A stretch of 20,789 bases of DNA from a virus: the IMG/VR virus record IMGVR_UViG_3300044612_001109, positions 1-20,789 of that record; one strand, given 5' to 3'. The first letter of the stretch is position 1. Each line of letters starts with the position of its first letter. The notes below the pieces were generated by a model. It did no database searches, was not told the origin of the DNA, and worked only from the letters and a program-made list of their open reading frames with translations. This document shows positions 6,280 through 18,325 of the stretch, piece by piece. The position numbers were made by a program, and so were the translations under genes.

Positions 6280-6358
6280 GGTTTAATTTAGTCGCGACTT
6301 TTTTGCAAATAGGTTTAATTTAGTCGCGACTTTTTTGCAAATAGGTTTAATTTAGTCG
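6280..6358. repeat. 32-bp tandem repeats with TCGCGA palindrome upstream of terL
   Basis: Two full 32-bp units (6280-6311, 6312-6343) and a 15-base third copy (6344-6358) are essentially identical. Each full unit begins GGTTTAATTTAGTCGCGAC and continues with a T-run and GCAAATA. The centre GTCGCGAC is an 8-bp perfect palindrome. The truncated copy runs into the stop codon of the 87-residue gene, where AATTTAG-TCG-CTAAATT makes a second perfect inverted repeat. Such iterons between small and large terminase genes could bind the small terminase (a packaging site) or a regulator of late genes. There is no U-tract in the correct place for a leftward terminator. Confidence 0.85.
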
Positions 6359-6622
6359 CTAAATTGGTATCGGATCTAAAAACATTGGGGTTGTCTCACC
6401 CATATAGGCCCCTAGAATGTTGTATTCGTAGTATTCGTACGCCTCTTCCTCATCCATCCCATCTTCCATCAGGATTTCAATAATTTTTGACACGCTGTAA
6501 CACACTACTGGGTCCCGGTCTATCCGCGAAACGATCCCTACAACCGCCTCATCAAACCGCCCTGGCTCAAGCACCATCGCGCCTTCTGCAAATTCGTTCA
6601 AATAGTCCCGTTTACTCATCAT
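6359..6622 (-). CDS. Unknown acidic protein between terminase genes, 87 aa
   Basis: The gene begins 11 bp inside the end of the small terminase gene, after a GAGGAG site, so it is co-translated with it. The protein is acidic, with MMSKRDYLNEFAEGAMVLEP at the start, a helix VCYSVSKIIEILMEDGMDEEEAYEYYEYNI and a short hydrophobic end. DEEEAYEYYEYN is a striking Glu/Tyr stretch, a pattern I recall in small phage proteins that follow small terminases. No enzyme motif is seen. It may assist packaging, by position only. Its stop lies in the truncated third copy of the 32-bp repeat. Confidence 0.7.
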   Translation of the reverse strand: MMSKRDYLNEFAEGAMVLEPGRFDEAVVGIVSRIDRDPVVCYSVSKIIEILMEDGMDEEEAYEYYEYNILGAYMGETTPMFLDPIPI

Positions 6623-7766: not shown

Positions 7767-7922
7767 GCCAATCCCCTCAAGAAGTAAGTGGTGGAAGGCG
7801 TCGTGAGACTGTAGACAGCTAATTATTTCAGGATCTATCCGAAAAGACTGGTGTGAGCTTCTAGCCCAGCCGGCCTTCCGAGATTAGTTTACTGTATTTT
7901 TAGGGGCGCGAGGCCCCTGGCA
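7767..7922 (-). other. Leader or intergenic RNA with long-range inverted repeat
   Basis: Between the 45-residue gene and the GNAT gene, GGAAGGC at 7793-7799 is the exact complement of GCCTTCC at 7873-7879, closing an 87-nt segment. On the minus strand the segment ends GCCTTCCACCA, which looks like a tRNA acceptor end. Inside, only short local hairpins such as CTGTAGACAG are visible, and D, anticodon and T arms cannot be drawn. A further hairpin, AGGGGC-GCGAG-GCCCCT at 7902-7918, lies at its far end. This could be a structured leader; chance is possible. Confidence 0.35.
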
Positions 7923-8060
7923 CTACTTGACTAGGGTTTTTAACTGCTGGAAACCGTAATCGATTGATTTTTCTACGTCTTTTTGCATATTCTCGAAAAG
8001 GCTTTTGCTGTACTCATACTGTTTTTCGACAATTGCTAGGTAGTTTTTAAAAAAGTCCAT
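7923..8060 (-). CDS. 45-residue helical protein, first gene of the leftward operon
   Basis: A frame of 45 codons begins at ATG 8060 after a good AAGGAGCGATC ribosome site and ends in TAG at 7925-7923. The product begins MDFFKNYLAIVEKQYEYSKS, continues helical with alternating charged and hydrophobic residues and ends QQLKTLVK. The composition recalls the helices of phasin-like proteins, but the match is weak and too short for a family call. It is the first gene after a candidate leftward promoter, so it would be the most abundant product of that transcript. Function unknown. Confidence 0.65.
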   Translation of the reverse strand: MDFFKNYLAIVEKQYEYSKSLFENMQKDVEKSIDYGFQQLKTLVK

Positions 8061-8087
8061 GATCGCTCCTTAGTTGTTGGAGTGTGT

Positions 8088-8116
8088 AGTTTAACCCACA
8101 TTTTGCTGCATTGCAA
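8088..8116 (-). promoter_or_regulatory. Leftward promoter of the assembly operon
   Basis: On the minus strand a -35 TTGCAA (8116-8111) and a -10 TAAACT (8093-8088) are separated by 17 bp, each matching the sigma-70 consensus in 4 of 6 bases, and lie about 28 bases before the first ATG at 8060. The -35 sits inside an inverted repeat TTGCTGCA-T-TGCAACAA (about 8103-8119), a possible operator. This is the best leftward promoter in the divergent control region. Confidence 0.5.
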
Positions 8117-8450
8117 CAAAGTCTAAAAAATTTTTATATATACCCCCCGGGGTGTTTCATTTAGAAGTCGAAGGGGGGTGTTTTTGTACAGAATAAGAAA
8201 CAAATCTAAGGGAAAACCCTTATGGGGGTGGGGGGTGTAACGTTTATGTTGCATTAGGAGGGTTAAGGATACGTTTATGTTACGTTAAAAAATTGCAGAT
8301 CTACCGTGCAAAATACAGTGTATAGAAGTACTAGGAGTCCCGAGTTGCCAAAATGGGGTGTGGGGGGTCAAGGAATGGGTGGGAGAAATCGGTGAGGGGG
8401 TGGGGTCAAAAGCTATCGAGAATCAAAACCGATTGGAAAATACAATCAAT
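8117..8450. other. G-rich divergent control region without genes
   Basis: No convincing gene lies here. Contents in order: an AT-rich track at 8124-8141; ACCCCCC (8142-8148) complementary to GGGGGGT (8173-8179) and followed by GTTTTTG, a possible rightward terminator; a run of G-tracts at 8224-8236; a 17-base direct repeat beginning ACGTTTATGTT (8240-8256 and 8271-8287); the palindrome ATACAGTGTAT near 8311; and a second set of G-tracts near 8354-8405 that could fold as a G-quadruplex on the + strand. It separates leftward assembly genes from rightward small genes. Confidence 0.6.
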
Positions 8451-8453
8451 AAT

Positions 8454-8497
8454 TAGGGTTTGCCCTAGGTTGACAGCGTATGACAATGTAATACAGT
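8454..8497 (+). promoter_or_regulatory. Rightward promoter P1 with upstream hairpin and operator
   Basis: A perfect -35 TTGACA (8470-8475) is separated by 16 bp from a -10 TACAGT (8492-8497). Between them lies the palindrome CGTATGACA-A-TGTAATACA (8477-8495), so a bound regulator would block RNA polymerase. Just upstream is TAGGG-TTTG-CCCTA (8454-8467), a small inverted repeat that recurs before other promoters here. The leader to the next ATG is about 46 bases. Confidence 0.75.
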
Positions 8498-8543
8498 TGA
8501 GGGGCAGTACCAAGTAACGCAGTAACTAACTAGGAGAAATAAT

Positions 8544-9500: not shown

Positions 9501-9530
9501 TTAGAAAAATGTATGACAATGTATTACATT
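9501..9530 (+). promoter_or_regulatory. Rightward promoter P2 with operator
   Basis: The operator-like word TGTATGACA-A-TGTATTACA spans 9510-9528. A plausible -10 TACATT (9525-9530) overlaps its right half; the best -35 is a weak TTAGAA (9501-9506) at 18 bp. It lies 40 bases before the ATG at 9571. The TAGGG/CCCTA hairpin of other promoters is missing here. Confidence 0.55.
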
Positions 9531-11887: not shown

Positions 11888-11931
11888 TAGGGTAAACACC
11901 TATAGACAAATGTATGACAATGTAATACAAT
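11888..11931 (+). promoter_or_regulatory. Rightward promoter P4 with hairpin and operator
   Basis: -35 TAGACA (11903-11908), 17-bp spacing, -10 TACAAT (11926-11931). The palindrome TGTATGACA-A-TGTAATACA (11911-11929) fills the spacer and covers the -10. TAGG...CCTA (11888-11902) forms the upstream inverted repeat. This is the clearest example of the shared promoter design. Confidence 0.75.
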
Positions 11932-11937
11932 GTATTT

Positions 11938-16294: not shown

Positions 16295-16647
16295 ACGCAT
16301 ACGAATTAGCTGATGCTCTTGATAATTTTGTTAACCCTAGTCGGGAAATTAAAGAATCACAAGCCATGCTACGCTACCAAGCAGACCAAATAAAAGAGTT
16401 AACAGATACTATTAAAGGAGAGAAGCAAATGGACATCAAAGTAAAAATTATTAGAGAAAACAAAGACGGGTCGGCCAACGCACAGGTGGACTTTGATAAA
16501 GAAGGACTAGAGTTCTTGGTGCAGGAAGGATTGCTATCCATAATTACTCAGTTCATAAAGAACAACGAAAACGCGCAAAAAGGTATGGCTATGCGTAAAC
16601 GGATTGTTACCAAGGAAAAGAAAAGTGCCATTAAAAAGAGTAAATAA
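16291..16647 (+). CDS. Two-part protein with internal start, 118 aa
   Basis: The first 46 residues (MNAYELADALDNFVNPSREI, then AMLRYQADQIKELTD) look like one small phage protein, and the last 72, from an internal ATG at 16429 (MDIKVKIIRENKDGSANAQV), look like another. The internal ATG is preceded by AAGGAGAGAAGCAA, a good ribosome site. The sequence therefore suggests two once-separate genes fused in frame, with the second still able to start on its own. The C-terminal part has VDFDKEGLEFLVQEGLLSII and a basic tail. Function of both parts is unknown. ATG 16291 overlaps the previous stop. Confidence 0.65.
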   Translation: MNAYELADALDNFVNPSREIKESQAMLRYQADQIKELTDTIKGEKQMDIKVKIIRENKDGSANAQVDFDKEGLEFLVQEGLLSIITQFIKNNENAQKGMAMRKRIVTKEKKSAIKKSK

Positions 16648-17083
16648 GATTGAAGGCCATCTTGTAACAAGACCGGCTAAAGATCACCCCGACTTAGCGT
16701 ATTGGTTTGCATTAAGAAACCTCAAGGTAATTGATCAAGATTATCAATGCGCGACTTGTTGGCGATCAAGCGAAGATTATTCTATGGAGTTGCATCACCG
16801 GCACTACGACAATTGGGGGCAAGAGCGCCTTGAAGATGTAGCGTTGTTATGTGTGAGTTGCCATGATGCGATTACAAACACAATTCGCAGTAGACGGAGG
16901 GCCCTAGGAGATCAGACTCTTAGTACTATCATCTCAGAGCCCAAACCAGTTCGGTCCAAAAGACCAAAGACTAGGAAAGTAAAAAATCCTAGGGCAGTAA
17001 AGGCCAAAAAGGTTGTGAAATCTAGAAAGCCTAAGATTAAAAAAAGAGTAGTTCCAAAAGTCAAACCTTATAAGGAGAATTAA
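16625..17083 (+). CDS. HNH endonuclease with basic tail, 152 aa
   Basis: HNH nucleases cut DNA with a metal held by a beta-beta-alpha fold. Residues QCATCWRSSEDYSMELHHRH (41-60) carry the first CxxC zinc pair and the catalytic His pair; YDNWGQERLEDVALLCVSCH (61-80) carries the Asn-bearing region and the second CxxC with a following His. The last 50 residues are almost only Lys, Arg, Pro and Val, like a histone-type DNA-binding tail. I favour GTG 16625, 8 bases after AAGGA; a TTG at 16604 is the alternative. A homing, packaging or host-DNA degradation role cannot be distinguished; it lies in the small-gene region, away from terL. Confidence 0.85.
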   Translation: MPLKRVNKIEGHLVTRPAKDHPDLAYWFALRNLKVIDQDYQCATCWRSSEDYSMELHHRHYDNWGQERLEDVALLCVSCHDAITNTIRSRRRALGDQTLSTIISEPKPVRSKRPKTRKVKNPRAVKAKKVVKSRKPKIKKRVVPKVKPYKEN

Positions 17084-17084
17084 C

Positions 17085-17693
17085 ATGGCAGGATATATGC
17101 AATACGATGTAACACTACAGGGCGACTCGTTGATCATGCACAACGGTCAAACCGCAAACCCACTTAACCCATTCTCAAAAGCAATGAAAGAGATTAGTGG
17201 TAAACGTAAGAAAACAGACTCGGACTACGAGGCGATGTCCAACATCGAATACAAAGCGGGTTTATATGTGGATGCTAAAAATAATGTAATCATCCCATCG
17301 CGTGTATTGGAGTCGGTATTGGCTGAAGGTGCCAAGAAATCAAAAGAAGGCAAACTGGCACTATCGGGTATGTTTGTGGATACCGATGCGCTTCTAATTT
17401 ATGATGGCCACCCCATGAGTCTTGATGAGTTGATGAATAGCCCTGAGCATCGTCTGTGTGTAGCAGTACGAGTTGGGATGTCAAAGGTTATGCGTACGCG
17501 CCCACATTTTAAAAACTGGTCGGCTAAGTTTAAGGTCTCTCTTAATGCCGATGTAGCCAACGAAGGCCAGTTACGTAGATGGGTTGAAGATGCCGGCGCA
17601 TATGTTGGGATCGGTGACTGGAGACCACGCCATGGTCGGTATGAAATTGTGAAGTTTGAGTCAGTCAGTAAGGGTCTCAAAAAGGTTGCCTAG
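17085..17693 (+). CDS. Conserved phage protein, 202 aa, next to the pentamer array
   Basis: The ATG follows AAGGAGAATTAAC, one base after the HNH stop codon. The product starts MAGYMQYDVTLQGDSLIMHN and contains NPFSKAMKEISGKRKKTDSD, then YKAGLYVDAKNNVIIPSRVL, a strand-rich middle, and a C-terminal motif AYVGIGDWRPRHGRYEIVKF. I recall similar proteins (MHNGQ, KRKKTD, GIGDWRP) in many phages of Proteobacteria, without firm function. The Gly-rich loop near the end resembles those of RAMP-like RNA-binding folds, but this is a weak impression. It is the last gene before the G-rich array and could act on it. Confidence 0.7.
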   Translation: MAGYMQYDVTLQGDSLIMHNGQTANPLNPFSKAMKEISGKRKKTDSDYEAMSNIEYKAGLYVDAKNNVIIPSRVLESVLAEGAKKSKEGKLALSGMFVDTDALLIYDGHPMSLDELMNSPEHRLCVAVRVGMSKVMRTRPHFKNWSAKFKVSLNADVANEGQLRRWVEDAGAYVGIGDWRPRHGRYEIVKFESVSKGLKKVA

Positions 17694-18315
17694 GTAGGGG
17701 TTTCATGGTGAGGTCTGGTTCGGAGCGGTGTGGCAGGGTGGGGTCAGGCAAGTTAGGGTTTGGGTTTCGTGGTGATGCGGGATGCGGTTAGGTCGGGTCG
17801 GGCGGGGTGAGGTTTGGACTGGCGAGGGTTTCTAGGTTGTGCTAGGTGTGACACGGTTCGGTTTGGCACGGTATGGAAAGGTATGGGTTTCTAGGCTAGG
17901 TGGGGCGAGGTGTTGTGCGGTGATGCTTGGAGTGGTATGGGTATCAAGGTGTGGCACGGCTCGGTACGGTCGAATGCGGTGCGGTTAGGCAGAGCACGGC
18001 ACGGCTCGGGTTTTAGGGCGCGGTACGGTCCGGTTTATTTAGGCGGGTTGTGGTGGGGTTGTGGTGGGGTCGTGCAGGGCAAGGGATTCGTGGCCGGGTG
18101 CGGTCGGGTTCTGTGCGGTGCGGTGAGTCATGGCCTTTTGTGGTGTGGTAGGGATTTCGCGGCGAGGCGGGGCGATGCGTGGTTTGCTCAAGTCTGGTCT
18201 CGTAAGGTATGGCAAGGTAGGGGTTTTATGGCTAGGTCAGGCATTTTTTAGTTGGGTCAGGCAATGTTAGGTGGGGTATGGTGGGGCACGGTTGGGACAT
18301 CAAGGTTTTTTAACA
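17694..18315 (+). repeat. G-rich 5-bp-periodic array (GGNNN) in blocks
   Basis: About 600 bp directly after the 202-residue gene is dominated by GG every five bases, with variable bases between (for example GGTAT GGCAA GGTAG). The register shifts at recurring words such as GGGTTTC, GGGATTC, GGGTATC or GGGTTTT, found near 17697, 17755, 17825, 17883, 17938, 18006, 18081, 18149, 18218 and 18294, so blocks of roughly 50-75 bp are delimited. C is mostly rare and never in long runs, so the strands differ strongly in G. A 113-codon open frame inside is a by-product of the repeat. It ends at AACAGGAGG of the next gene. Confidence 0.9.
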
Positions 18316-18325
18316 GGAGGAAGTT

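Follow-up and report, generated by a model that had tools for sequence, protein, structure and literature searches.

A probable phage-borne VIPR locus with guides that fit genes of rival elements and of the host core

The window (the whole stretch of viral DNA analysed here, 20,789 nucleotides) very likely carries a phage-borne VIPR locus made up of an HNH gene, the gene vipr and an array of nine vrRNA guides, some of which fit genes of rival elements and some host core genes, with silencing of both as the probable outcome; we put the probability of this reading at roughly 0.8. VIPR (Viral Interference Programmable Repeat) was presented in a preprint of April 2026 as an inter-phage weapon and a possible forerunner of CRISPR, with a RAMP protein, Vipr, with vrRNAs of 9-16 YNNGG repeats whose NN letters pair with double-stranded DNA at a 1-nt skip, with repression of competing phages and with seven types (bioRxiv 2026.04.26.720920, PMC13142463). 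For SUSP1, guide binding, DNA recognition and repression have been shown by others (PMC13142463). No further paper on VIPR beyond this preprint was found in the open literature, and literature searches for the repeat, for phrog_4652 and for RNA-associated Cas7-like phage proteins did not turn up the array. VIPR itself is known; measured against the main text of the preprint, the targeting of host core genes and the link to an HNH gene are the new part. The locus comprises the following features:

16604-17083, + strand: HNH-domain gene, 159 aa, probable VIPR accessory gene (Pfam HNH E 9.6e-6; ends 1 nt before vipr)
17085-17693, + strand: vipr, 202-aa RAMP-like protein of phrog_4652 (E 1.8e-47; PDB 36pp; predicted model)
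17694-18310, + strand: predicted vrRNA guide array, nine guides of YNNGG units (autocorrelation, HMM parse, no excess folding)
17700-17703, 17764-17767, 17828-17831, 17887-17890, 17941-17944, 18010-18013, 18085-18088, 18154-18157, 18223-18226 and 18297-18300, + strand: 4-nt words (HMM parse)

No Pfam family was found for the 202-aa protein at E 0.01, and the function of its family, phrog_4652, is not annotated. The sole strong PDB match was 36pp, 'SUSP1 Vipr protein' (E 9.2e-61; profile A2, 71 homologues). AlphaFold2 gave a model with a pLDDT of 91.2, and all 50 Foldseek matches listed, of 59 at E<=0.001, were chains of type III/VII CRISPR complexes, the top match having E 9e-6 and a TM of about 0.5. 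Judged by homology and predicted fold, the protein is Vipr, a RAMP homologue of the SUSP1 protein, and membership in the Vipr family is also what the window shares with VIPR type II of Escherichia phage SUSP1. The model further resembles, as a predicted fold, the Cas7-type backbone proteins of class 1 CRISPR systems; Cas7, as the preprint states (PMC13142463), has a 6-nt period and a continuous guide, whereas the window has a 5-nt unit of which only NN would be read. Matches of the 202-aa protein were obtained by tblastn in 129 phage records and 6 plasmid records.

Upstream of vipr an HNH gene was present in 36 of 100 loci (the window included, remote ones counted down to E 4.6e-4), and downstream of vipr a phrog_5926-like gene in 52; 12 loci had neither and none had both, L021-L033, L056 and L016 being omitted from this count. 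At the window, no phrog_5926-like gene was detected among the ORFs from 4 kb upstream to the window end, 3.1 kb downstream. The HNH gene is probably a VIPR accessory gene and may correspond to one of vap1-6 of the preprint. Alignment of 14 HNH proteins revealed C49, C52, H64, H65, C83, C86 and H87 as invariant; because the usual N of the motif, by reading of the same alignment, is not conserved, catalysis is in doubt. Nucleases or helicases have been assigned to VIPR types III-V, with nucleases only in III and V, both in defence islands (PMC13142463), whereas the HNH gene of the window resides in a phage.

A sequence-only reading of the window had described a GG every 5 bp on one strand, and the autocorrelation of 17694-18325 bore this out: GG-GG coincidences at lags 5, 10, 15, 20 and 25 led to z = 7.6, 8.9, 6.4, 5.7 and 4.2, 0/1000 dinucleotide shuffles reached the observed count at any of these lags, and all three best windows of a two-strand scan lay on the + strand. 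Parsing by an HMM that combines a YNNGG unit with a 4-nt insert placed the array at 17690-18296, close to the 17694-18315 first proposed, and divided it into nine guides of 10-14 units each. The three bases between GG pairs had been described as variable, which holds for the two N; the first is not free but a pyrimidine, with base counts of T 761, C 619, A 39 and G 6 in 127 guides from 15 related arrays. Likewise, the GGGTTTC-type words do delimit blocks, with lengths of 54-75 nt, but the word itself comprises a 4-nt insert (GTTT, GTAT, GATT, ATTT or ACAT) that follows a GG, together with the Y of the unit after it; the insert adds an autocorrelation peak at lag 39 (z 4.7). The suggestion that the regular GG reflects a repeated protein contact fits, with the 202-aa neighbour as the likely partner; the spacing is that of the 5-nt unit of VIPR guide RNAs and not half a helical turn of DNA.

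The view that the array is non-coding and no microsatellite was also confirmed, and protein coding was rejected, as the ORFs inside the array are mechanical. A structured long RNA, another of the earlier proposals, was rejected as well, since folding of the array region was no better than that of shuffles (z -0.65; 4/20 shuffles equally good). Searches for known RNA families found none at gathering score in seven loci (including L021, a copy of the window array), none at E<=1 in two actinophage loci and one tRNA in 19 further loci. Promoters (6 found, 3.8 expected) and terminators (1 found, 1.5 expected) were predicted, none of them within the array. The window array has no shared unit beyond the 4-nt words, and so there are no near-identical CRISPR repeats with contiguous spacers. 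Its likeness to VIPR covers the Vipr homologue, GGY/NN repeats within the range of 9-16 units, an array beside vipr, the 1-nt skip, a phage as carrier and some mobile-element targets, whereas the compact array, the 4-nt punctuation and the absence of a visible folded tail set it apart, as do guides with matches to housekeeping genes and a tRNA gene of the host, a kind of target absent from the main text of the preprint. A structured 3' tail per guide as in SUSP1 was not seen in the window, where the 4-nt words alone and the folding z-score given above were found. In Felixounavirus wV8, which is related to SUSP1, a phrog_5926 gene is present and visual inspection suggests hairpins separating the guides; the window is without both. 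The 'staggered arrays' of the preprint could be the architecture seen in the window.

For the search of targets, 88 distinct guides from 17 loci were scanned, guides of fewer than nine units or with an indel being omitted. In G068, one Burkholderiales genome, 22/88 guides matched at E<0.01 with a 1-nt skip and 15 at E<1e-3, compared to 1/88 at E<0.01 with skip 0 and 0/88 each with skips 2 and 3. Specificity was judged in this one genome of the likely host genus against shuffled and reversed guides, which at E<0.01 and skip 1 gave 1/440 and 0/88 matches, respectively. Counted by guide family, 13/46 matched, against 1, 0, 0, 0, 0, 0, 0 and 0 in eight shuffled sets. The predicted targets in G068 with the 1-nt skip are:

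Genes of polyprenyl (octaprenyl-type) diphosphate synthase, phosphoglucomutase/phosphomannomutase and a YicC-family protein (tested as a fragment), all three approximate names below NCBIfam's own cut-off
ribBA, moaC, bamA, lysS, gyrA, ubiA and the gene of 2-dehydropantoate 2-reductase
hemB, a name that rests on its sequence only
tRNA-Arg(TCT)

In 10 of the 11 target protein genes, on either strand, the skipped base is codon position 3, although codon phase played no part in the search. As the skipped base is the third codon position, a guide would be matched to the two letters per codon that are conserved best and would tolerate synonymous change. The exception is hemB, with the skip at codon position 1 and an E of 0.0085, among the weakest matches, and for this reason some matches may be due to chance. 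From the matches and their controls, the NN letters are read as carrying target information under a 1-nt skip rule. For the nine guides of the window, the following assignments were obtained:

17704-17763, + strand: guide 1, 12 NN; fits patchily occurring phage-type integrase genes, best 22/24 letters
17768-17827, + strand: guide 2, 12 NN; fits a second integrase type, best 22/24
17832-17886, + strand: guide 3, 11 NN; no target found
17891-17940, + strand: guide 4, 10 NN; no target found
17945-18009, + strand: guide 5, 13 NN; no target found
18014-18084, + strand: guide 6, 14 NN, lengthened by an 11-bp duplication; 18/18 letters of the first nine NN agree with host tRNA-Arg(TCT)
18089-18153, + strand: guide 7, 13 NN; fits host ribBA, antisense, 23/26 (G068)
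18158-18222, + strand: guide 8, 13 NN; fits the host polyprenyl (octaprenyl-type) diphosphate synthase gene, 24/26 in G068
18227-18296, + strand: guide 9, 14 NN; fits a YqaJ-type phage recombinase gene, antisense

When up to 3 mismatches were allowed, guide 1 matched in 12/101 and guide 2 in 6/101 genomes of the likely host genus, the reversed controls giving 0 in both cases and about 0.08 matches being expected by chance for 24-letter guides in these 101 genomes. Both tested targets of guide 1 were Phage_integrase genes (E 9e-27 and 9e-28), and the two tested targets of guide 2 showed Phage_int_M, Arm-DNA-bind_3 and Phage_integrase domains. Guide 9, searched with NN5 wild and the last NN omitted, was found at 7 places in 5/101 genomes (control 0), and two tested targets proved to be YqaJ genes (Pfam E 4e-30 and 2e-31) with the skip at codon position 3; at full length the window form reached at best 24/28 and the L001 form 26/28. 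Guide 6 contains an 11-bp tandem repeat at 18045-18074, which shifts its register and breaks the match to tRNA-Arg; the shorter form occurs in L001 and L003, and the unduplicated form of its relatives fits tRNA-Arg(TCT) with 21/24, whereas the full form of the window fits nothing. Guide 8 (12 NN, one letter left as Y) matched in 110/399 Burkholderiales genomes at <=3 mismatches, with about one chance match expected across the 399 and none for the reversed control. Most of these matches read as one conserved peptide, AEGEV-QLLN, the gene having been identified in G068 only. No match was observed for guide 3 in 101 genomes (against 4 genomes for its reversed control, a measure of the noise with shorter guides), for guide 4 in 61 genomes at <=2 mismatches (control 1 match) and for guide 5 in 399 and in 151 genomes (control 2 genomes and 1 genome, respectively). 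In total, six of the nine guides have a predicted target under the 1-nt skip and three (guides 3, 4 and 5) have none, guides 6, 7 and 8 fitting core host loci and guides 1, 2 and 9 integrase or recombinase genes of mobile elements. Points against our reading are the three guides without a target, the mismatches of guide 7 (3/26), guide 9 (4/28 at best) and guides 1 and 2 (2/24 at best) and the duplication that disrupts guide 6.

The first 12 NN of guide 8 matched exactly in four of the 399 genomes, with sizes of 1.7-2.1 Mb, and G068, covered by the same search, is one of them. By their size and order, these exact-match genomes may belong to Polynucleobacter. As judged from the guides, the likely host is a member of one Burkholderiales genus whose genomes measure about 2 Mb.

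A second scan with the 88 guides covered 3.34 Mb of relatives, with L021-L033, L056, L115, L116, L121, L251 and L291 left out. Here 2/88 guides matched at E<1e-3 with skip 1, compared to 0/264 shuffled and 0/88 reversed guides at E<0.01, and none of the window guides had a significant target. One of the two, a guide of L012 (7206-7260), agrees in 21/22 letters at skip 1 with the DNA polymerase gene of phages of the window type and in 17/22 with the gene of its own phage, and from this match sister phages may aim at each other. The other, from L003, would fit a start-site region, a match that is unproven. Matches at skip 3 (one with E<1e-3) were rejected, as they fall in incompletely masked arrays; the same was seen in the un- or partly masked scan. 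In viral contigs, exact 10-NN patterns of guides 8 and 5 gave nothing, and 8-NN patterns of guide 1 (7 stretches) and guide 3 (31 stretches) were judged on inspection to be mostly chance. One 8-NN match of guide 1, in L334, falls in a gene that is integrase-like by sequence.

From the protein family, the array, the code and the predicted targets found here, a mechanism can be proposed in which the array would be transcribed and processed at the 4-nt words, and Vipr, as a small RAMP protein, would coat each guide with one molecule per unit. GGY would hold the protein, each NN would pair with the target DNA and one target base would be skipped. In this way the phage would silence rival elements and probably also host genes, with host shut-off as the presumed result; the HNH protein encoded next to vipr may add cleavage of the DNA that has been bound. 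A stronger version regards the array as a weapon of host takeover, in which the two-letter reading of codons in conserved core proteins, or the reading of a tRNA, would fit many host strains despite their synonymous differences and the HNH protein would cleave the host chromosome together with resident mobile elements; we consider this a real possibility, at somewhat below even odds. Compact phage-borne guides, some against host transcription and translation genes and some against phages, have a precedent in the CRISPR arrays of huge phages, which differ in having contiguous spacers, CRISPR repeats and partly cas genes (PMC7162821). If VIPR guides of phages also strike host core genes, this would amount to an RNA-guided host takeover with a code blind to synonymous variation, and guides could then also reveal the hosts of uncultivated phages, here one Burkholderiales genus.

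Alternatively, the array might be directed against rival mobile elements only, with the matches to host core genes as by-products, for example of guides captured accidentally from host DNA. The natural targets in the preprint, satellites and prophages (PMC13142463), would agree with this, as would the integrase and recombinase genes fitted by guides 1, 2 and 9 and the L012 guide for the DNA polymerase gene of sister phages. However, ten protein genes matched in wobble phase and a tRNA-Arg gene in one genome, and 13/46 families compared to 0-1 in shuffled sets, speak against by-products, and accidental capture does not predict that five arrays retain slightly altered members of the guide-8 family or that three guide families fit one tRNA-Arg(TCT) gene. 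We therefore consider a restriction to mobile elements unlikely.

The 127 guides of the 15 related arrays were grouped into 46 families, and guide 5 of the window is kept in eight other arrays. Vipr is identical in the window and L001, yet only guides 4 to 9 are common to both, and window guide 2 recurs in L012 and L013, where Vipr is 78% identical. Singletons make up 18/60 guides in the half next to vipr and 6/60 in the far half (Fisher p 0.011, a hint, as rows are related). In guide pairs with at least 75% identity (n=100), sites differed at Y in 19.9%, N1 in 8.0%, N2 in 11.3%, G1 in 10.6% and G2 in 6.5%, while in unrelated pairs (n=2424) the values were 43%, 66%, 67%, 27% and 22%. By these comparisons, NN is stable inside a guide family but not from one family to the next, as required for a guide, and guides behave as modules that are shared and replaced between phages, new ones lying more often close to vipr. 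The origin of the guides is a question this clade could answer; the main text of the preprint names no guide-acquiring genes (PMC13142463). A decaying array with little present function might be suspected from the about 24% of GG pairs that deviate in the 127 guides and from the duplication in guide 6, but NN changes less than Y within families, guides are shared and replaced between phages and singletons are more frequent near vipr, which makes decay very improbable.

To follow the array in further genomes, loci were gathered by protein similarity alone, not by array, and each stretch of 250 nt was scored by its GG triples spaced at lag 5 in comparison with those at lags 4, 7 and 8, a score of at least 5 counting as an array. 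A sense-strand array was found near vipr in 90/101 loci and an antisense one in 1/101, copies L021-L033 and L056 being omitted and near copies kept, so that rows in this and the 100-locus count are not independent (L049 is the L101 contig, and L045-L047, L067/L070, L077/L082 and others are alike). Arrays beside homologues of the 17085-17693 protein had been proposed as a check of the sequence-only reading and are hereby found. The tallies for the place of the array (59 + 23 + 7) sum up to 89, as the peak of one locus falls in neither flank. The 11 loci below the score are L017, L048, L049, L050, L052, L058, L062, L092 (where the contig continues for only 328 bases), L101, L103 and L111 (phiHSIC). 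Background windows far from vipr scored 3.0 at maximum (n=1425), and no array was detected on either strand in the 0.69 Mb taken from 15 relatives with the DNA polymerase gene in common but without a Vipr match (maximum 3.0), the absence of Vipr resting on an empty search answer, weak alone, and on a Vipr profile that also found none in the fetched pieces. Six arrays were encountered blind in the polymerase and terminase relatives. One belongs to the contig of L014 itself and two sit where a contig ends; in the remaining three (L184, L187 and L191) a distant Vipr was recognised (E 1e-16 to 1e-17).

An element acting at the DNA level, such as an R-loop origin, a Chi-like shield or a packaging or ejection signal, would account for the strong period and the strand bias, but is hardly credible given that the array is tied to vipr in unrelated phages and prophages, was not seen in Vipr-less relatives and carries target information in NN under one skip rule. 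Of the DNA-level roles first proposed, a recombination hotspot, Chi-like shield and packaging or ejection signal found no support, nor did an R-loop origin, even though the pairing of a guide RNA with DNA would loosely resemble an R-loop.

Several of the loci deserve mention on their own. The arrays of L184, L187 and L191 are very regular and seemingly punctuated by GGCAGGT words, and these phages share the DNA polymerase gene. The phage phiHSIC (L368/L111, AY772740) has a Vipr homologue, ORF22, yet no GG array in its whole genome (maximum 3.0), and may contain a lone Vipr or a different repeat. In Pseudomonas phage LESphi2 of P. aeruginosa LESB58 (L110), P21_9 is homologous to Vipr, P21_8 is a phrog_5926 gene and the array is located upstream. 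In the arrays of Gordonia phage MakoManhole (L018:2880-3160) and Mycobacterium phage LittleE (L020:4140-4460), hairpins resembling a tRNA T-arm appear by eye as separators; they have GGTTCGANTCC-type loops, are without an anticodon arm, are not called by ARAGORN and Rfam, and might be RNase P processing signals or guide tails.

Elsewhere in the window, an exact 32-bp tandem repeat of 2.5 copies is located at 6280-6359, just upstream of the minus-strand terminase gene, and a 10-bp unit, AATGTATGAC, occurs in tandem at both 9508-9528 and 11909-11935. Gene direction and GC skew flip at about 7800-8500, with the terminase side to the left on the minus strand and the region of the VIPR locus to the right on the plus strand.
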